64,000 nucleotides of DNA from Rhodoferax sp. (GTDB lineage: Bacteria; Pseudomonadota; Gammaproteobacteria; Burkholderiales; Burkholderiaceae_C), in contig JARXAM010000027.1 in assembly GCA_029865845.1 (NCBI GenBank), positions 84,956 through 148,955 of the forward strand, given 5' to 3'. Position numbers and translations under genes: made by a program. Below, piece by piece: positions 22,666 to 33,286 of this stretch. The first letter of the stretch is position 1; the number at the start of each line of letters is the position of its first letter. The notes under the pieces were generated by a model. It searched no databases, was not told the DNA's origin, and saw only the letters and a list, made by a program, of their open reading frames with translations.

Positions 22666-22752
22666 ATCAGCACTCCACGATATTCACCGCCAGTCCGCCA
22701 CGGGCGGTTTCTTTGTATTTGGTTTTCATGTCGGCACCGGTTTCGCGCATGG
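22666..22752 (+). repeat. Direct repeat A: orphan copy of the sdaA 3' end
   Basis: 87 bp identical at 85 positions to 25960-26046. On the minus strand it encodes the last 28 codons of SdaA with its stop, but has no gene in front of it. The two mismatches are both third-position Gly codons (GGC GGA against GGT GGG). It marks the outer boundary of the island. Confidence 0.95.
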
Positions 22753-22802
22753 ATTTTTATCCGATACTTTGTGTCCACCCAGTTGCCAGTGGAACTTTAT
22801 TT

Positions 22803-23798
22803 ATGAATCAGCTTGATGTTCTGTACCAGCTTGAGAGGCTTCTAGCCAGCCCTCAGCCTATGGGGCGTGACGCACTAATGAGCAAGTTGGAGGTATCCAG
22901 GGCGACGCTCAAGCGCTATTTGGAAATCCTGCGCAACAGAATGAATGTACCTATCGAGTACGACAGGTGTACAAATACATATGCCATTCAACGCAACGTC
23001 GGCGCGAGCGGCTTCGCATTGGATCGCCAAGAGCTTCCCGGCGTCTGGTTCAGCCAACAGGAACTGATTGCTCTTTTGACCATGTCAAAGTTGATTGGCG
23101 AACTCGACGCCACGGGAATGCTTCACCGCCAACTGCGACCAATTTTGGAGCGGCTGGACAAAATGTTGGGCTGCACACCAATGCAATCCCAAGAGTTCCA
23201 GCGCCGCGTTCGCATTCTTGGGGTCGCTCGTCGAGAGGTTTCAAATCAGTTTTTTGAACGGGTTGGCCTCGGACTTACCCAACGCAATCAACTGCATGTC
23301 AGATATTTCACGCGCAGTCGGGGAGTAGAAACCAGTCGCATTCTTTCACCGCAGCGACTTGTCCATCATCGACACACGTGGTTCTTGGATGCTTGGTGCC
23401 ACGCGTCATGTTCGCTAAAGCGCTTTGCTTTGGATGCATTTCGCGAGGTGCAAGTCTTGAAAGATGCAGCCCACAATGTTCCCGTTAGCGAGGTGGAAAA
23501 AGCATTTGATGTTGGCTACGGTATCTACCATGGAGACAGAATTCGGTGGGCTACATTGGTGTTTACTGCACGTGCATCTGCCTGGGTCGCTTTGGAACAG
23601 TGGCATCCTGATCAAAAAGCGCGGCGACTGGCCTCTGGCTCGTTGGAGTTGAAGGTTCCTTATACCAACGATGAAGAGTTGCTGATGGATATACAGCGTC
23701 ACGGCGCTGATGTAAAGGTCAAGGCACCTGCCGCGCTCAGGAACAAATTACTGAACGGGTTGAAGCAGGCAGTGACGCAATACGAGAACGGCGAATGA
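22803..23798 (+). CDS. WYL-domain transcriptional regulator
   Basis: 331 residues from ATG 22803; the upstream part of the ORF track entry is just the reversed sdaA repeat. An N-terminal winged helix (MGRDALMSKLEVSRATLKRYLEIL) is followed by a WYL domain with ISR-SRILSPQRLVHH and HTWFLDAWC, and a C-terminal WCX-type extension (LASGSLELKVPYTNDEELLMDI). WYL regulators of this layout (BrxR, CapW) repress phage-defence loci and respond to a ligand such as single-stranded DNA or a nucleotide, as known from the family. It stands first in the island and in the same direction as the effector-like genes, so it probably controls them. Confidence 0.9.
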   Translation: MNQLDVLYQLERLLASPQPMGRDALMSKLEVSRATLKRYLEILRNRMNVPIEYDRCTNTYAIQRNVGASGFALDRQELPGVWFSQQELIALLTMSKLIGELDATGMLHRQLRPILERLDKMLGCTPMQSQEFQRRVRILGVARREVSNQFFERVGLGLTQRNQLHVRYFTRSRGVETSRILSPQRLVHHRHTWFLDAWCHASCSLKRFALDAFREVQVLKDAAHNVPVSEVEKAFDVGYGIYHGDRIRWATLVFTARASAWVALEQWHPDQKARRLASGSLELKVPYTNDEELLMDIQRHGADVKVKAPAALRNKLLNGLKQAVTQYENGE

Positions 23799-23805
23799 CT
23801 TCCGC

Positions 23806-23824
23806 AGGCTCATTTGGTGAGCCT
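23806..23824. promoter_or_regulatory. Inverted repeat AGGCTCA-TTTGG-TGAGCCT
   Basis: A perfect 7-bp inverted repeat with a 5-base spacer, just after the WYL stop and about 50 bp before the next start codon. It could be the operator bound by the WYL dimer, or an RNA hairpin. There is no T-run, so a terminator is unlikely. Confidence 0.4.
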
Positions 23825-23874
23825 CTGTTCAACCATACTAGCGGACGGTGATTTGGACAGACTAAGGAGTATTT

Positions 23875-24264
23875 ATGCTGCGACAGGATTGGGGATTCGA
23901 CTACACGGCTGCAAACTTGGCGGAAGCCGCCGCGCAAAAGAAGGCGTTTCATCAAGAACGCTTTGATTGGTGGAAGAATAAGCGCGACGAGGTAATGAAC
24001 ACCATTCGAACTGAGGGACTGGAGATCGATGAAAAGATTGCCCTTGAGTACAGGAGTCCAAAGTCCCGTGATTGGGATCGAAGTTCGCAAGTGATGGTGC
24101 GTAACGATCTGCAAAAGGATCTCAATGAATGTGTAGAAAAACTCAGTCATCACACCTCATTTATCCAACAATATGTTGGTTGGCAACAGGTGCTAGCGGC
24201 GAATCCCGAGTCTCGGGTTAAGTTGGATATTGATGATTGGTTGTTCTTCTTCAGTCGCAATTAA
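23875..24264 (+). CDS. Unrecognised 129-aa island protein
   Basis: I do not recognise this protein. It has an excellent Shine-Dalgarno (AAGGAG, five bases before ATG), so it is surely translated. It is soluble, helical and highly charged, rich in Asp/Arg/Lys/Trp, with no signal peptide, membrane segment, Cys pair or nucleotide-binding motif. The conserved-looking stretches are RFDWWKNKRDEVMNTI, RSSQVMVRNDLQKDLN and the acidic end LDIDDWLFFFSRN. It lies between the WYL regulator and the UDG-like gene, 36 bp before the latter. It could be an adaptor, antitoxin or sensor in the cassette. Confidence 0.75.
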   Translation: MLRQDWGFDYTAANLAEAAAQKKAFHQERFDWWKNKRDEVMNTIRTEGLEIDEKIALEYRSPKSRDWDRSSQVMVRNDLQKDLNECVEKLSHHTSFIQQYVGWQQVLAANPESRVKLDIDDWLFFFSRN

Positions 24265-24300
24265 AAGCCTTTGTTTATATCTGGAAATTGAGGGGTTGGT

Positions 24301-24969
24301 GTGGATAAGTTATCAATGCTTCATATGTTGGGGAAAAAGAGGAGAGTGTCTGCATTAGGAGATTATAGAAATATTGGGTTTTATCATGACGGCGCATATG
24401 ATTGTGATTGGGTGTCTCCATACACAAAATCAGCTTGCAATATAAATGCAGACGTCATGGTCGTACTTCAGGATTGGGCTTCGGACTCAGACTTAAGCAA
24501 AACACTGGATCCTGATGTCGTGGAATATGGACTGACGCCTAATGCACCTACAAATACAAATTTAAAAAACTTGCTTTGGACGCATTTAAAGCTAGAGCTT
24601 AAGGATGTTTTTGTGACCAATATGTTTCCTTTCGTCAAGCTCGGGGCAATGAGTGATTCAATTCCAATAGGGGCTATGTTGCGTGCCGCGCGCGATTATT
24701 GTCAGCCACAAATTGATATCGTAAGGCCCGCGCTTGTGATTTGCACCGGTATTGCGGTGTTCAATGTTCTTCGTAGGATCCATAAGTTTCCTAGAGTGAA
24801 GAATGCGGACGAAGGCATCAAGAGTCCATTTGTTGTGGGCGCGACAACATATTATTGTCAGTCGCACCCCGGTATGCTTGGCAAAAACAACAGGCAGCGT
24901 CATGGCAGGCGTGACCAAGTTGCTAAAGATTGGGAAACAATGGCGAAGGTATTGAAAGGCCAATCGTGA
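24301..24969 (+). CDS. Uracil-DNA glycosylase superfamily-like protein
   Basis: 222 residues from GTG 24301, preceded by GAGGGG. The fold signals are those of the UDG superfamily: an early strand and loop VMVVLQDWASD in the motif I position (GQDPY or GEAPG in true enzymes), PTNTNLKNLL, the strand DVFVTNMFPFVK, VRPALVICTGIAVFNVL, and a late CQSHPG in the motif II position (HPS). The catalytic loops are divergent, so base removal is unproven. The gene is AT-rich against its neighbours. Its TGA overlaps the GTG of the sirtuin gene, so the two are translationally coupled. A nucleic-acid base-sensing or excision role is an inference. Confidence 0.7.
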   Translation: MDKLSMLHMLGKKRRVSALGDYRNIGFYHDGAYDCDWVSPYTKSACNINADVMVVLQDWASDSDLSKTLDPDVVEYGLTPNAPTNTNLKNLLWTHLKLELKDVFVTNMFPFVKLGAMSDSIPIGAMLRAARDYCQPQIDIVRPALVICTGIAVFNVLRRIHKFPRVKNADEGIKSPFVVGATTYYCQSHPGMLGKNNRQRHGRRDQVAKDWETMAKVLKGQS

Positions 24970-25802
24970 CTTTGAAGCAAGCCGCAGAAATTGTCTCTTC
25001 TGCCGATGCGCTTTTCATCTGCGCTGGTGCGGGGATGGGGGTTGATTCTGGACTTCCAGACTTCCGAGGCAATGAGGGATTTTGGAAGGCATATCCAGCA
25101 TTAAAGAGTGTAAACCTGCGTTTTGCGGAAGTTGCGAGCCCTTTCACTTTTGCGGAAGATCCAGTGTTGGCTTGGGGCTTTTATGGACACAGGTTGCAGC
25201 TATACAGGAATACCCAACCGCATCAAGGGTTTGCAATACTAAAGAAGTGGGCAAAAGCGAAGTCACTTGAATGGCGTGTATTCACCAGCAATGTGGACGG
25301 GCAATTTCAAAAAGCAGGGTTTGACGAGTCAAATATTTACGAGTGCCATGGTTCCATACACCATCTTCAGTGTATGGATGGATGTTCAAACCATATTTGG
25401 GATGCGGAATCGTTTAAGCCCATAGTGAATGAATCTACTTGTCGGCTGATTTCCGCATTGCCTAAGTGTCCGCAATGTGACGGTTTGGCCCGACCCAACG
25501 TCATGATGTTTGGTGACGGTGGTTGGCAAAGTCACCGTAGCCAATCTCAAGAAGATCGCTTGGAAAACTGGCTTTCCAGATTGGCCGACCAAAGCGCGCG
25601 TTTGGCGGTGGTTGAAGTTGGCGCGGGAACATCCATTCCATCTGTCCGTACATTTAGTCATTCGTTGATTCGTCGCTATGGCGCGCGCCTTGTACGAATA
25701 AATTTGCGTGAGCCTCAGGTTCCCAATCTTGATCATGTCGGCTTGGAGATGGCCGCATTGAGTGCATTGAAAGAAATAGATTCCTACATAAATAGGTTCT
25801 AG
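24966..25802 (+). CDS. Sir2 family NAD-dependent deacetylase-like protein
   Basis: 278 residues from GTG 24966, which overlaps the stop of the UDG-like gene (GTGA) and has AAAGG in front. The NAD-binding and catalytic motifs are intact: GAGMGVDSGLPDFRG (about 21-35), TSNVDGQF (about 107), the catalytic His in ECHGS (about 128), and RPNVMMFGD. A zinc tetrad is present (Cys 136, 140, 168, 171). This makes it a true sirtuin in form: NAD-dependent deacylation or ADP-ribosylation of protein. It differs from the zinc-free SIR2 NADases of Thoeris or DSR systems. The FWKAYP and LAWGFYGHRL segments place it in a bacterial subfamily found near accessory genes. Target unknown. Confidence 0.92.
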   Translation: MTLKQAAEIVSSADALFICAGAGMGVDSGLPDFRGNEGFWKAYPALKSVNLRFAEVASPFTFAEDPVLAWGFYGHRLQLYRNTQPHQGFAILKKWAKAKSLEWRVFTSNVDGQFQKAGFDESNIYECHGSIHHLQCMDGCSNHIWDAESFKPIVNESTCRLISALPKCPQCDGLARPNVMMFGDGGWQSHRSQSQEDRLENWLSRLADQSARLAVVEVGAGTSIPSVRTFSHSLIRRYGARLVRINLREPQVPNLDHVGLEMAALSALKEIDSYINRF

Positions 25803-25803
25803 T

Positions 25804-25941
25804 ATGTCAATTGCACGATTGTTTACGCTTCCACCAGCAGTGCTTTTGCATATCAATTTGCACGGGTTGGGTGTACTCATTGGATTGTTTTTGTGCTACC
25901 GAGCATACCGACGCAAATCCTTAACGAGTACCAAAAAGTGA
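25804..25941 (+). CDS. 45-aa single-pass membrane peptide at the end of the island operon
   Basis: Too short for the ORF track. ATG 25804 starts one base after the sirtuin TAG, so it should be read by coupled translation. The peptide begins MSIARLFTLPPAVLLH, has one hydrophobic span (HGLGVLIGLFLCYRAY) and ends in a basic tail (RRKSLTSTKK). It stops 18 bp before the right repeat, entirely inside the island. Such peptides can act as membrane-depolarising effectors or as anchors for a partner. No family recognised. It might also be a chance ORF, but the one-base spacing and amphipathic layout argue for a gene. Confidence 0.55.
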   Translation: MSIARLFTLPPAVLLHINLHGLGVLIGLFLCYRAYRRKSLTSTKK

Positions 25942-25959
25942 CTTTGAAACCAGGCGCAG

Positions 25960-26046
25960 ATCAGCACTCCACGATATTCACCGCCAGCCCACCACGGGCG
26001 GTTTCTTTGTATTTGGTTTTCATGTCGGCACCGGTTTCGCGCATGG
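25960..26046 (+). repeat. Direct repeat B: 3' end of the intact sdaA
   Basis: The right boundary of the island. It contains the final 28 codons and stop (TGA on the minus strand at 25961-25963) of the functional sdaA gene. See repeat A for the comparison. Confidence 0.95.
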
Positions 26047-27349
26047 TCTTGATGACCTTGTCCAGGCTCACCATGTGGCTGCCGTCGCCACGCAGGGCCA
26101 TGCGGGCGGCGTTGATGGCTTTGACCGACGCAATGGCGTTGCGCTCTATGCAGGGTATTTGCACCAGCCCACCCACCGGGTCGCAGGTCAGGCCCAGGTG
26201 GTGTTCCATGCCGATCTCTGCGGCGTTTTCCACCTGCTCGGGGGTGCCGCCCATCACCGCGCACAGGCCAGCGGCTGCCATGCTGCACGCTACGCCCACC
26301 TCGCCTTGGCAGCCCACCTCGGCACCGCTGATGGAGGCGTTTTCTTTGTAGAGGATGCCGATGGCGGCTGCGGTGAGCAAAAAGTCCGTCACGCCTGCGT
26401 CACTGGCCCCAGGCAAGAAGCGGCTGTAGTAGTGCAGCACAGCGGGGATGATGCCGGCCGCGCCGTTGGTCGGTGCGGTGACCACGCGTCCGCCTGCGGC
26501 GTTTTCTTCGTTCACGGCCAGGGCATAGAGGTTGACCCAGTCCATCACCTGCAAAGGGTCTTTGAGCGCGGCTTCGGGGTTGCGGGTGAGCGCGGCATAC
26601 AGGCTGGGCGCACGGCGCTTGACTTTGAAGCCGCCGGGCAAAATGCCCTCGGTACGGCAGCCGCGCTGCACACAGTCTTGCATGACATGCCAGATGCGCA
26701 AAAGGCCGGTGTCGATGTCGGCATCGCTGCGCCAGTGCTGCTCGTTACGCCGCATCACCTGGGCGATGCTTAGGCCTTCGCGGTGGGCGACTTGCAGCAA
26801 GGCATCGCCGCTGGTGAAGGGCAAGGGCAGCACGGTGGCATCTGGGGCAATGACCTTTTGGCGGCTTCCATCGGCGGCCACGTGGTCGCTCACGATAAAG
26901 CCGCCCCCCACCGAGTAATACACGCGGTTGGACAGCTCTTGCCCTGCGGCGTCCAGTGCGACCAGGCGCATGCCGTTGGCATGAAACGGCAGCGGCGCTC
27001 GCATGAACAGCAGGTCTTCCTTTTCGTTGTACGCAATGGCGTGTGCCCCTGCCAGCACGATGCGTTGCGTGCTGCGGATAGCTGCCAACGTGGGGGCGAT
27101 GTGGTCGACCTCGACGGTGTCTGGCTCCAAGCCCGAAAGCCCCAACAGCACTGCCACATCGCTGGCGTGGCCCTTGCCTGTGGCCCCCAAAGATCCATGC
27201 AGCCAGCAGCGCACCGTGGCAGTGTGGGATAGCAATTTGTCGGCTTCCAGCCGTGCCACAAAGAGCCGTGCGGCGCGCATGGGGCCCACGGTGTGCGAGC
27301 TGCTGGGGCCGATGCCGATTTTGAAGAGGTCAAAGACAGAAATGGCCAT
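25961..27349 (-). CDS. sdaA: L-serine ammonia-lyase, single-chain type
   Basis: Iron-sulfur enzyme that deaminates L-serine to pyruvate and ammonia. Fused beta and alpha domains, 462 residues: [16 protein letters not shown] at the N-terminus, [19 protein letters not shown] and [23 protein letters not shown] with the cluster cysteines. The C-terminal end ([10 protein letters not shown]) includes the tail cysteine that enters the active site in this family. The last 28 codons are the repeat brought by the island, so the enzyme is intact but with an imported tail. It is the last gene of the gcvT-gcvH-gcvP-chaA-sdaA run, joining glycine cleavage to serine breakdown. Confidence 0.97.
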
Positions 27350-28606: not shown

Positions 28607-31531
28607 TTATGCAGCGGCGTAGTCGCCCACCGGCACACAACTGCAAAACAGGTTGCGGTCGCCATACACGTTGTCCACCCGGCCTACGGTGGGCCAATAC
28701 TTGGCCGCCTTGAGGGTGGCTACCGGGAAGGCACCCACCTCGCGGCTGTAGGGGCGGTCCCACGCGGCGCCAATCACACTGGCAGCGGTGTGGGGAGCAT
28801 GCTTCAAGGGGTTGTTGTCCTGTGGCCAGACACCGCCCTCGATTTGCGCGATTTCGCCACGGATGGCAATCATCGCGTCAATGAAGCGGTCCAGCTCGGC
28901 GAGCGTCTCGCTCTCGGTGGGTTCCACCATCAAGGTGTTGGGCACGGGGAAGGACAGCGTGGGCGCGTGAAAGCCGTAGTCCATCAGGCGCTTGGCCACG
29001 TCCTCGGCCATCACGCCGCAGGTTTCCTTGAAGTGGCGCAAGTCCAAAATGCATTCATGCGCTACATGCCCGTTGGCCGATGCGTACAGCGTGGGGTAGT
29101 GGTCGGCCAGGCGGGCGCTGATGTAGTTGGCGCTCAAGATGGCTACCTCGGTGGCTTGCTGCAGGCCGTCCGGGCCCATCATGCGGCAGTACATCCAGCT
29201 GATGGGCAGCACGGCTGCGTTGCCCAGCGGTGCGGCTGAAATGGCCCCTGTGCCGGACACACCGCCGGTGGCATGGCCGGGGAGGTAGGGCACCAGGTCT
29301 TCCACCACGCACACGGGACCCACACCGGGGCCGCCACCGCCGTGGGGAATGCAAAAGGTTTTGTGCAGGTTCAGGTGGCTCACGTCGCCGCCAAATTCGC
29401 CGGGTGCCGCCGTGCCCACTAGCGCGTTCATGTTGGCGCCGTCCACATACACCCGGCCACCGTGGCTGTGCACCAGTGCGCACAGCTCTTTGACGGTGGT
29501 TTCAAACACGCCGTGCGTGCTGGGGTAGGTGATCATGATGGCCGCGAGGTTGGCGCTGTGCTGCTCGCACTTGGCTCTCAAATCCGCCATGTCCACATTG
29601 CCGCGCTCGTCGCATTTGGTCACCACCACCGTCATGCCCACCATCATGGCGCTGGCGGGGTTGGTGCCATGCGCGCTGCTGGGAATCAGGCAGATGTTGC
29701 GGTGGCCCTGGCCCCGCGCCTCGTGGTAGGCCTTGATGACCAACAAGCCGGCGTATTCGCCCTGGCTGCCTGCATTGGGCTGCAGGCTGATGCCCGCGTA
29801 GCCGGTGGCCGCGCACAGCCAGGCGCGCAGTTGGGCGTCTAGTGCGGCGTAGCCCTCGCGCTGGTCGGCCGGGGCAAAGGGGTGGATGTTGGCGAACTCG
29901 GGCCAGGTGATGGGGATCATCTCGCTGGTGGCGTTGAGCTTCATGGTGCAGGAGCCCAGCGGGATCATGCTGCGGTCCAGCGCCAGGTCTTTGTCGCTGA
30001 GTGCGCGGATGTAGCGCAGCATGCCGGTCTCAGAGTGGTGGGTATTGAACACCGGGTGGGTCAAAAACGTGCTGGTGCGGCGCAGGGCAGCGGGGATGCG
30101 CACATCGGTAGCGGGTTCCAGTGCGTCCACGCTGGGAGGGGTCTGGCCCGGCTGCACGAAGAGGCTCCACAGGAGCGCAATGTCGTCGCGGGTGGTGGTT
30201 TCGTCGAGCGATATGCAGAGGTACTCGTCCCATGCAATTCGGATGTTGGCCCCAGCAGCGACTGCGCGTGCCGCGATGGCGTTGGTGGCGTCTTGGGTGT
30301 GCAGGCACACGGTGTCGAAAGCCTGCTCATGGGTGAGCACCACGCCCATCTGTTGCAGACCTTCGGCCAGGATTGCCGTGAGCTTGGCAACTCGCTGTGC
30401 AATGCGCTTGAGGCCTTCGGGCCCGTGGTACACGGCGTACATGCTGGCCACCACGGCGGGCAGCACCTGTGCGGTGCAGATGTTGGAGGTGGCTTTTTCG
30501 CGGCGTATGTGCTGCTCACGGGTTTGCAGGGCCAGGCGGTAAGCGGGGTTGCCATGGGTATCGATACTCACGCCCACCAGTCGGCCTGGCATGGAGCGTT
30601 TGTACTCGTCGCGGCAGGCCATGTAGGCGGCGTGCGGGCCGCCATTGCACAGGGGCATGCCAAAGCGCTGGGTGGTGCCCACCACAATGTCGGCCGCGCC
30701 TGTCGGGTCGCCCGCGCCCCATTCGCCGGGTGGCACCAGCAAGGTGAGGGCCAGCAGGTCGGCTGCCACGATGTAAGCGCCGCCCTTGCGGTGCACGGTT
30801 TTGACATCGTCGCCCTCTTCGCCCAGGCGGCCGCTGGTGGAGGGGTATTGCTCCAGCACGGCAAAGTAGTCGTCACCGGCAATCAAGGTGTCCCACTCTT
30901 CCTGGGAGTTGGCCAGCTTGACGCTGATGCCCAGGGGCGCTGCGCGGGTCTGGATGACTTCGATGGTTTGCGGGTGCGCGTCGCCTGCCACGATGAACAC
31001 GTTGCCTTTTGCCTTGACCGAGCGGCGGGCCAGGGTCATGGCCTCAGCGGCGGCCGTGGCTTCGTCCAGCATGGAGGCGTTGGCAATCGGCATGCCGGTG
31101 AGGTCGCAGACCATGGTCTGGAAGTTCACCAGCGCTTCCATGCGGCCCTGGCTGATTTCGGCCTGGTAGGGCGTGTAGGCGGTGTACCAGGCGGGGTTTT
31201 CCAGGATGTTGCGCAGGATGACGCCGGGGGTGTGGGTGCCGTAGTAGCCCTGGCCGATGAAGCTCTTGAGCACCTTGTTTTTGCCCGCAATGCTTTTGAG
31301 TTCTGCCAGCGCGGCGGCTTCGGTGATGGCTGCCGGAATGGCCATGGCGCTCTTGCGCGCAATGCTGGCGGGCACGATGCTGGCAATCAGATCGGCGCGC
31401 GACTTTTCGCCGATGGCCTGGAGCATCAGCGCTTCGTCGTCGGCAAAGATGCCAATGTGGCGCGCCTGGAATTCGCTAGCGTTTTCGAGTTGTGACAGGG
31501 TGGGCGTAGAGGTTGTGGCAGAAGTGGACAT
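28607..31531 (-). CDS. gcvP: Glycine dehydrogenase (decarboxylating), P protein
   Basis: PLP enzyme of the glycine cleavage system. It decarboxylates glycine and passes the aminomethyl group to the lipoyl arm of GcvH. The fused homodimer-type protein has 974 residues from ATG 31531. It begins [13 protein letters not shown], has the N-half [22 protein letters not shown], and the PLP lysine in [18 protein letters not shown]. It follows gcvH by about 100 bp in the riboswitch-controlled operon. Normal length, no defects. Confidence 0.98.
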
Positions 31532-31632
31532 GGCGGTGGCGTTCGGTGGTGGGCGGTTCACACAAACGGGTAGCCTGCTGGTTCAGGGCGGGCTCCCGGG
31601 GACTTTGCAGGCAGCGCCTGCAAAGCGGGCGT

Positions 31633-32004
31633 TTAAGCGTTGGCGGAAAACGCGGTGTAGCTGGTCTCGTCCATCAGGCCTTCGAGTTCGGCCGGGTTGG
31701 ACAGCTTGACTTTGAAGAACCAGCCTGCGCCCAACGGGTCGGTGTTGGCCAGCGAGGGGTCGTCGCGCAGGGCCTCGTTGACCTCGGTGATTTCACCGGT
31801 CACGGGCATGTACACGTCGGCCGCCGCCTTGACGGATTCGACTACACCGGCCACGGCCTTGGCATCAATGTGGGCACCCACGGCGGGCAGGTCCACAAAG
31901 ACCACGTCGCCCAGCGCATCTTGCGCGTGGTGGGTAATGCCGACGGTGGCGATGTCGCCTTCGATTTGGAGCCATTCGTGATCGGCTGTGTATTTAAAGG
32001 ACAT
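31633..32004 (-). CDS. gcvH: Glycine cleavage system H protein
   Basis: Small lipoyl carrier that shuttles the aminomethyl group between P, T and L proteins. 123 residues, with [21 protein letters not shown] and the lipoylated Lys in [17 protein letters not shown] clear AGGAGAA precedes ATG 32004. It lies between gcvT and gcvP, 120 bp after the former. Confidence 0.98.
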
Positions 32005-32125
32005 AACGTTCTCCTGAAACTAAAGATAAGGGTTTGCTGTGAGGGGTTGAACCACCGGAACTAGAACCTGCCAGACGCCACTGTAGCGGCTGAATGTGCT
32101 GTTTTCGGCCCCGTGGTGCCTTGGA

Positions 32126-33286
32126 TCAGCCGCGGTAGTAGTTCGTGGGTACAAAGGGCATGGCACTCACCACCATGGGTACCGGCTTGCCGCGCACGAT
32201 AGCCATCACTTGGGTGCCCAAAGCCGCCATTGACGCATCGACATAGCCCATGGCTACGCACTGGTTGATGGTGGGGCCGAGCAGCCCGCTGGTGACTTCG
32301 CCGATGGGGTTGCCCGCTCCGTCTTGCAGCTCGGTGTGTTCGCGCACTGGGATGCGCTCTTGCGCCACCAGGCCCACGCGCTTCTTGGTGCCCGTTGGCC
32401 CACTGGTACTGCTGGAGTCCGCAAGAGCGGCGAGGATGCGCGGCGCGCCCGGAAACGCGCCCGCGCGTGCGCCACCGGTGCGGCGCACCTTTTGGATAGC
32501 CCAGTTCAGGCTGGCTTCGACCGGGGTGGTGGTCGTGTCAATGTCGTTGCCATACAAGCACAAGCCCGCTTCCAGGCGTAGCGAGTTGCGGGCACCCAGG
32601 CCTATGGGCTGCACTTCGGGCTGCGCCAGCAGAGCGCGGGCCAAGGCTTCGGCATGATGGTTGTGAACCGAGATCTCAAAACCGTCTTCACCGGTGTAGC
32701 CGCTGCGAGTGAGGAATACGTCAATCTTTTGGGTGCCGGTATCCACTGTGAAGTCCCCACCGGTCATGAATACCAGTTTCTCCACGCCGGGCGCCAGGCG
32801 GGCCAGCGCCGTCACCGCTTGCGGGCCTTGCAGGGCCAGCAGCGCGTGGTCGGGCAGGGGGGTGACTTGGCAGCGATGTCCGATATGGGCTTGGATGTGG
32901 GCGATATCCCCCGCTTTGCAGGCACCGTTGACGATGACGAAGAGGTCGTCCTGCGCCTTTTTGAAAAACATCAGGTCGTCGATGATGGTGCCCTCTTCGG
33001 TGAGCAGCAGGCCGTAGCGCTGTTTGCCCACCGGCAGGTCGATCACGTCCACTGGCATCAGGCTCTCAAACGCAGCGCAGGCGTCGGGGCCGCCCAGGCG
33101 CAGTTGACCCATGTGGGACACGTCAAACAGACCAGCGGCCTTGCGGGTGTGGTGGTGTTCGGCCATCAGGCCTGCGGGGTATTGGACCGGCATGGAGTAA
33201 CCGGCAAACGGCACCATGCGGGCACCCAGTTCCCGGTGCAGGGCATGCAGGGGTGTGGTCAACAAAGAAGCGTCAGAAGCAGACAT
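32126..33286 (-). CDS. gcvT: Aminomethyltransferase, glycine cleavage T protein
   Basis: Transfers the methylene group to tetrahydrofolate, giving 5,10-methylene-THF and ammonia. The ATG at 33286 (MSASDASLL) gives 386 residues. The ORF-track start at 33535 would run through the riboswitch. Motifs: FAGYSMPVQYPAGLMAEH, FDVSHMGQ, SRSGYTGEDGFEI-type (LTRSGYTGEDGFEI). A Ser/Gly-rich insert near ALADSSSTSGPTGTKK is unusual but harmless. First gene of the gcv operon, directly behind the glycine riboswitch. Confidence 0.97.
   Translation of the reverse strand: MSASDASLLTTPLHALHRELGARMVPFAGYSMPVQYPAGLMAEHHHTRKAAGLFDVSHMGQLRLGGPDACAAFESLMPVDVIDLPVGKQRYGLLLTEEGTIIDDLMFFKKAQDDLFVIVNGACKAGDIAHIQAHIGHRCQVTPLPDHALLALQGPQAVTALARLAPGVEKLVFMTGGDFTVDTGTQKIDVFLTRSGYTGEDGFEISVHNHHAEALARALLAQPEVQPIGLGARNSLRLEAGLCLYGNDIDTTTTPVEASLNWAIQKVRRTGGARAGAFPGAPRILAALADSSSTSGPTGTKKRVGLVAQERIPVREHTELQDGAGNPIGEVTSGLLGPTINQCVAMGYVDASMAALGTQVMAIVRGKPVPMVVSAMPFVPTNYYRG

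Follow-up and report, generated by a model that had tools for sequence, protein, structure and literature searches.

Does a row of genes that looks like an anti-phage operon in one genome amount to a new defence system? We addressed this question for a stretch of 64,000 nucleotides of Rhodoferax sp. DNA (contig JARXAM010000027.1; hereafter the window), taken from a draft genome of 2.74 Mb that is 76% complete. A short island in the window (positions 22753–25959) carries, in one direction, genes for a WYL transcription factor, a 129-aa protein, a protein of the uracil-DNA glycosylase (UDG) superfamily and a sirtuin (SIR2), followed by a 45-aa open reading frame (ORF). An original prediction, made from the sequence alone, had read them as a candidate new five-gene defence cassette. 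We found that the locus matches no named system and is not a new five-gene system conserved across genomes; rather, it combines genes of known kinds in a new way, and includes a WYL–SIR2 pair that recurs in other genomes. Four of the five co-directional genes stood up to Pfam searches, gene calling or comparison with relatives; the fifth, the 45-aa ORF, did not, having no family, no relative in the loci compared and no call.

A scan of one genome per species, covering 84,980 species, yielded 25 loci with a UDG-like gene. Apart from the UDG-like gene itself, no ORF of the island (WYL, 129-aa, sirtuin or 45-aa) had a relative at any of them within the flanking DNA, up to 8 kb per side (tblastn, E ≤ 1e-3), and none of the five loci with a credible relative of the 129-aa protein held any other island gene. 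These results rule out a conserved five-gene system; failure of the genes to occur together elsewhere, which the original prediction had itself named as counting against the cassette, is what we observed for the UDG-like gene with the sirtuin and for the 129-aa protein with any of the others. Among 399 genomes of the order, the window's own being included in every count, the UDG-like gene was present in 3, the sirtuin in 29 and the WYL type in 140 (E ≤ 1e-30 for the latter two), and the 129-aa protein had matches in 4, one of which was discarded. The sole other genome with both a UDG-like gene and the sirtuin (G310) has them on separate contigs. Such a distribution favours the strongest rival explanation, chance accretion, according to which a WYL–SIR2 module, a lone UDG-like gene and a lone phage recombination gene gathered at one cargo site and share transcription without sharing a mechanism. 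Indeed, relatives of each gene occur without the others, the set as a whole is found in a single genome, and half of the called UDG-like relatives (11 of 22) stand without a gene in the same direction within 100 bp. The locus thereby illustrates how a system suggested by the gene order of one genome can, on comparison, break down into a recurrent pair and exchangeable parts.

The recurrent pair consists of the first and fourth genes of the island. The WYL protein (22803–23798, plus strand, 331 aa) has all three domains of WYL transcription factors, HTH, WYL and WCX (Pfam WYL 4.4e-14, WCX 9.8e-12, and HTH_11 at 25.1 bits, just over the cut-off of 25), so that its earlier identification as a WYL regulator was correct. 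Relatives of the sirtuin were examined at 37 loci (6 on plasmids, 31 chromosomal), and a WYL gene was found at seven (L008, L089, L092, L094, L095, L098 and L105), whereas none of the 25 UDG-like loci had one; a link between WYL and SIR2 is thereby supported. In the chromosomal loci a WYL gene was seen in 6 against 0.17 expected from the WYL density of each genome. Since two of these six are related fusions, we count about five independent events, for which P is ~1e-6 (at least five), a value uncorrected for the clustering of accessory genes in islands. The WYL and SIR2 genes are adjacent and in the same direction in L089 and L095, are separated by a single AAA ATPase gene in L008 and by two ORFs in L105, and are encoded as domains of one protein in L094 and L098; in L092 the two genes are on opposite strands. 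WYL–SIR2 is, thus, a recurrent pair, mostly co-directional and with changing intervening genes, and its presence in the island is not due to chance. Because the genes between the two change elsewhere, the WYL-x-x-SIR2 order of the window fits a recurrent core with exchangeable genes. The gene caller missed the sirtuin itself in four of the 37 loci (L011, L078, L089 and L105), and the count of WYL genes may therefore be low.

The pair also exists as a natural fusion. Of 43 genomes of one family, six, belonging to three genera, have a full-length WYL–SIR2 protein of ~617 aa (61–100% identity), and a seventh genome matched the SIR2 half only. The six fusions (L094:5314-7167, L098:5013-6881 and L200–L203) sit in several different neighbourhoods, with what we take by eye to be serine-recombinase-like genes at one and an SMC-like gene at another. 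The fusion could both bind DNA and deacylate; in a sirtuin joined to a WYL sensor that binds DNA, nucleic-acid sensing and NAD+-dependent deacylation would be coupled within one protein. We found no description of such a fusion in the literature searched, which included the available parts of PMC4012209, PMC9503650, PMC9122126, PMC10270631 and PMC9122601. The mobile pair and its fused form are, in our opinion, the finding most worth following. Regulators of defence loci of the BrxR/CapW type (PMC10270631) resemble the island protein in their HTH-WYL-WCX build and in its place as first gene of the island operon; the island WYL protein differs in being linked to a sirtuin and, in other genomes, fused to one.

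The sirtuin (24966–25802, plus strand, 278 aa, GTG start) is a SIR2 protein, as had been predicted (Pfam SIR2 3.3e-24), of the SIRT5/CobB-like deacylase type. All 38 aligned sequences keep H128, N109, D111, C136, C140, C168, C171 and Y73, and 37 keep R76; a Y-x-x-R motif forms the acyl pocket of SIRT5 and CobB. The island protein thus has all catalytic and zinc residues of this type along with the motif. It differs in belonging to an accessory subfamily (the 29 of 399 genomes above) that scores far under the NCBIfam equivalog cut-offs and is occasionally linked or fused to WYL. Its best Protein Data Bank (PDB) matches are deacylases, and it had no match at E ≤ 1 among the PADLOC defence models, those of known defence SIR2 proteins such as DSR and ThsA included; the sirtuin, therefore, is not of a PADLOC-listed defence type. 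The best interpretation of these sequence features is an active protein deacylase, not an NAD-depleting effector. An abortive or toxin-like system, in which SIR2 would deplete NAD+ or modify a target and the WYL protein would keep it silent, has a precedent in other SIR2 domains that work so in defence (available sections of PMC9503650). Given the complete deacylase motifs with zinc cysteines in all 38 sequences, the deacylase matches in the PDB and the lack of a PADLOC match, we consider it very improbable.

Class M sirtuins act on GcvH-like proteins, and the locus could in principle be a metabolic operon for acyl- or lipoyl-protein modification of this kind. The sirtuin has full-length, though weaker, similarity to 5a3a (7.1e-14), which we take to be SirTM, and genes that by eye look like gcvP, gcvH and gcvT occupy 28607–33217 of the window, ~2.6 kb from the island, a noteworthy coincidence. 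These genes, the host gcvH-like gene among them, are outside the island and its bounding repeats, however, and no relative of gcvH was found in 42 loci; a lipoyl- or GcvH-linked operon was the other sign that had been named beforehand against a defence cassette. Moreover, L008 was the only sirtuin relative next to which a macrodomain gene was identified. A metabolic role of the class M kind is accordingly the least credible of the explanations we considered.

The neighbours of the sirtuin relatives add further contexts. Among 102 neighbouring proteins, hand-picked mostly from 140 listed (L011:5272-5904 was taken from the record annotation), WYL was the family with most members (5, two fusions included) and KptA had one match, placed in L082 by motif search; these PADLOC and Pfam tallies, like those for the UDG-like neighbours below, are raw counts read without a matched control set of random neighbours. 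On a plasmid of Sphaerotilus sulfidivorans (L008:2667-8542), a row of WYL, AAA ATPase, SIR2, MavL-type macrodomain and annotated dual-specificity phosphatase genes stands downstream of an annotated brxD, and may possibly be an ADP-ribose conflict operon. In the available text of PMC9503650, the authors propose that WYL factors of NAD/ADP-ribose conflict networks sense ADP-ribose moieties. The ARG-centred systems described there have in common with our locus a WYL factor, an NAD/ADP-ribose enzyme and a variable gene set, and the sirtuin relative of L008 shares with them the macrodomain and phosphatase as well. They differ in that no Pfam ARG, Nudix, macro or phosphatase domain was found among the five ORFs of the island, and in that, according to the same excerpts, the authors sought systems without coupled ADP-ribosyltransferases or sirtuins. 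Other arrangements were seen as well. A Thiodictyon plasmid (L006:4691-6810) has an FtsZ-family gene immediately ahead of its SIR2 relative. Two relatives (L080:6588-7934 and L103:5732-7033) have an N-terminal extension of ~170 aa, and a Pfam scan of the first gave SIR2 only. One genome (G255; L077, L082, L089 and L090) has six matches to the subfamily, of which one is interrupted by two stops, and a KptA-like gene ahead of one copy (L082).

The UDG-like protein (24301–24969, plus strand, 222 aa, GTG start) passed the Pfam UDG cut-off narrowly (2.6e-5, 24.8 bits against 24.3). An AlphaFold2 model built from 22 sequences (pLDDT 93.7) found as its best solved fold the family-4 UDG 4zbx (Z 19.6, 2.8 Å over 184 residues), in support of the fold assigned earlier. 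Q57-D58-W59, T106-N107 and H189 are invariant in all 22 sequences, and N107 aligns with the asparagine of the family-4 TN motif; motif 1 reads QDW in place of the family-4 motif. Family-4 enzymes have four conserved cysteines for an iron–sulphur cluster, whereas no cysteine was seen among the invariant or nearly invariant columns of our alignment. Because the model has the family-4 fold and the alignment lacks a conserved cysteine, we place this predicted family close to family 4, though lacking the cluster of that family. In fold it is related to the anti-phage glycosylase Brig1, and it is at most a putative member of the Brig group; the likeness to Brig1–3 is drawn from fold and published descriptions. 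The UDG superfamily is common to Brig1, Brig3 and the island protein, and an S. tokodaii family-4 UDG is the best structural match of both Brig1 and our model, with a reported Dali Z of 9.2 for Brig1 against 19.6 here, by a different aligner (consulted portions of PMC11078745). According to the same paper, it is the TN-motif asparagine of the S. tokodaii enzyme that touches the base, and Brig1 uses pocket residue Glu147 there, a position held by Asn107 in the island protein. Brig3 has BapA as operon partner (PMC13160076, in part), in contrast to the WYL, SIR2 and 129-aa partners here.

Brig1 and Brig3 also serve for comparison in location near defence genes, and here the picture for the UDG-like relatives is mixed, with defence genes beside some and ordinary genes beside many. 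From 129 neighbouring proteins we dropped 10 that were short or pieces of the UDG-like gene, and in the remaining 119 PADLOC matched Dsr1, GajB, type I restriction–modification, DrmD and mad3; the gene caller missed the UDG-like gene in 3 of the 25 loci. A full-length Dsr1 (L033:337-5182, PADLOC 2.5e-168) lies upstream of one relative in the same direction, and a mad3-like gene lies upstream of another (L023). On a viral contig (L190), a relative stands divergently among consecutive portal, protease and terminase genes in the manner of a moron. The family adds candidates for base-excision immunity.

The same protein invites a cellular reading, a host DNA-damage response operon with no anti-phage role, in which the WYL protein would sense single-stranded DNA, the glycosylase would repair uracil or oxidized bases and the sirtuin would tune repair proteins. 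Retention of the TN-motif asparagine, with the role given it in PMC11078745, is compatible with repair. WYL factors do act in damage responses (available parts of PMC10693628 and PMC11804915), and one of them, SiwR, is described in the former as binding single-stranded DNA and responding to genotoxic stress. The patchy distribution of the UDG-like gene (3 of 399 genomes), its location in an island, and the phage and defence-gene contexts of its relatives, however, make this explanation unlikely.

The 129-aa protein (23875–24264, plus strand) had, like the 45-aa ORF, no Pfam match. Its relatives, at 46–67% identity, come from two viral contigs, two genomes and a Bradyrhizobium plasmid; one of them (L191) comes just after the end of an ERF recombinase gene, another (L192) is preceded by NinB and HNH genes, and a third (L073) has type I CRISPR Cas genes nearby. 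We discarded one further match (G358, E 0.0037), which runs antisense to a well-scored ORF. Modelling gave, with moderate confidence (pLDDT 79.6), a helical hairpin, for which a fold search returned nothing significant (best E 0.24), and the UvsY chains, which are recombination mediators, that the model matched at E 1.3–1.8 were set aside as noise. We consider the protein most likely to be a phage recombination accessory. The 45-aa hydrophobic ORF (25804–25941, plus strand) was proposed to encode a membrane peptide. It does begin one base past the SIR2 stop, as had been noted, in a weak Shine–Dalgarno-like context only (by eye). It matched no family, the loci tested had no relative of it, and the composition-based caller did not report it; its standing as a gene has no support, and it is probably not one.

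The remaining four genes are closely spaced, with gaps of 76 and 36 bases followed by the GTGA overlap of the UDG-like and SIR2 genes at 24966–24969, which we confirmed. All four were called by the composition-based caller (floor 45 aa), which passed over the fifth ORF, and Shine–Dalgarno-like stretches were seen by eye ahead of the 129-aa, UDG-like and SIR2 starts. A promoter scan found none. A perfect 7-bp inverted repeat with a 5-base spacer (23806–23824), between the WYL and 129-aa genes, was considered as an operator and rejected, because the island holds two such repeats against 0.8 in shuffles (maximum 4). The close spacing, the 4-base overlap and the single direction suggest co-expression; together with the association of WYL and SIR2 beyond chance and the hints of DNA recombination or repair from two of the four genes, they count against chance accretion, which we nevertheless regard as a serious possibility, with perhaps a third of our belief.

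The explanation that we favour, tentatively and at somewhat less than even confidence, is a mobile WYL–SIR2 control core with DNA-directed, probably anti-phage cargo, organized as one operon in an acquired 3.2-kb island. Several observations weigh against it. The full gene set is found in one genome, the WYL type is widespread (140 of 399 genomes), and a WYL gene is missing from 30 of the 37 loci with the sirtuin. On the sirtuin tree, the WYL-bearing loci are dispersed (5 changes, with 13 of 500 shuffles as low), which also contradicts a dedicated clade of WYL-linked sirtuins. Eight of ten UDG-like neighbours scanned singly had no PADLOC match at E ≤ 1e-10, and many of the tallied ones are ordinary metabolic genes.

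On this control-core reading, the island would have been delivered to the 3' end of a host gene resembling sdaA by site-specific or homologous recombination. Its stable part would be the WYL factor and the NAD+-dependent SIRT5/CobB-type sirtuin, a mobile unit that elsewhere takes the form of one fused protein, and the exchangeable DNA-directed cargo would here be the UDG-superfamily protein and the 129-aa phage-recombination-associated protein. The WYL protein may control the operon by responding to single-stranded DNA, or to a nucleotide ligand whose level increases during an attack on DNA. The UDG-like enzyme would then strip uracil-like or modified bases from incoming phage DNA, leaving abasic sites, and the 129-aa protein might act on the resulting single-stranded or recombination intermediates. 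Finally, the sirtuin could deacylate the WYL factor or another DNA-bound protein, or supply O-acyl-ADP-ribose to the WYL sensor, and its activity would thereby set the length of the response. The first and last of these steps gain support from the WYL–SIR2 association; for the middle ones, fold and genomic context are what suggest them. The gene content, the flanking repeats, the WYL–SIR2 association and fusion, the predicted fold and the retained catalytic residues are what the data show; the ligand, the base substrate, the target of the sirtuin and a role against phage are inferred. A bolder, joint proposal, that WYL–SIR2 is a mobile NAD+-dependent switch with exchangeable anti-phage cargo and also that the Q-D-W family, in which no cysteine is conserved, is a separate clade of anti-phage base-excision enzymes directed against uracil-containing or hypermodified phage DNA, seems to us doubtful.

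The island itself is foreign. Its GC content is 0.48, against 0.586 for the whole window and ~0.60–0.66 for the flanks, and it is bracketed by a direct repeat of 87 bp, 98% identical, that had been overlooked. The attachment-site-like left copy (22666–22752) repeats the 3' end of the sdaA-like gene and the right copy (25960–26046) lies within that end. This flanking host gene and insertion target (25961–27349, minus strand), taken from the ORF list and named by eye as an L-serine dehydratase with no family search made, has relatives in 60 of 120 family genomes (E ≤ 1e-80). The repeat comprises its final 86 bases, stop included, and one further base, and the two mismatches between the copies are synonymous third-position changes. 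A direct repeat of the target gene's 3' end is a mark of genomic islands; elements that integrate into the 3' end of a gene while bringing their own copy of it, such as tyrosine-recombinase islands, leave this layout. Because of the repeat and the low GC content, we conclude that the island was acquired horizontally. No integrase was found among the island ORFs and Pfam matches. The left-flank hydrolase had no match in the DNA downstream of 20 sdaA-like relatives, which thus offered no clean empty site. Nor is the sdaA-like 3' end a family-wide insertion hotspot, as a downstream repeat was present in none of these 20 (~3.5–13 kb downstream each); downstream of one (L156) there is a single 22-base inverted match, which is not a copy of the gene end. 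The phage collection searched held no phage carrying this 3' end. On one viral contig (L159:350-703), a phage ORF is joined to an sdaA-like gene end, and we set this aside as probably a chimeric assembly.

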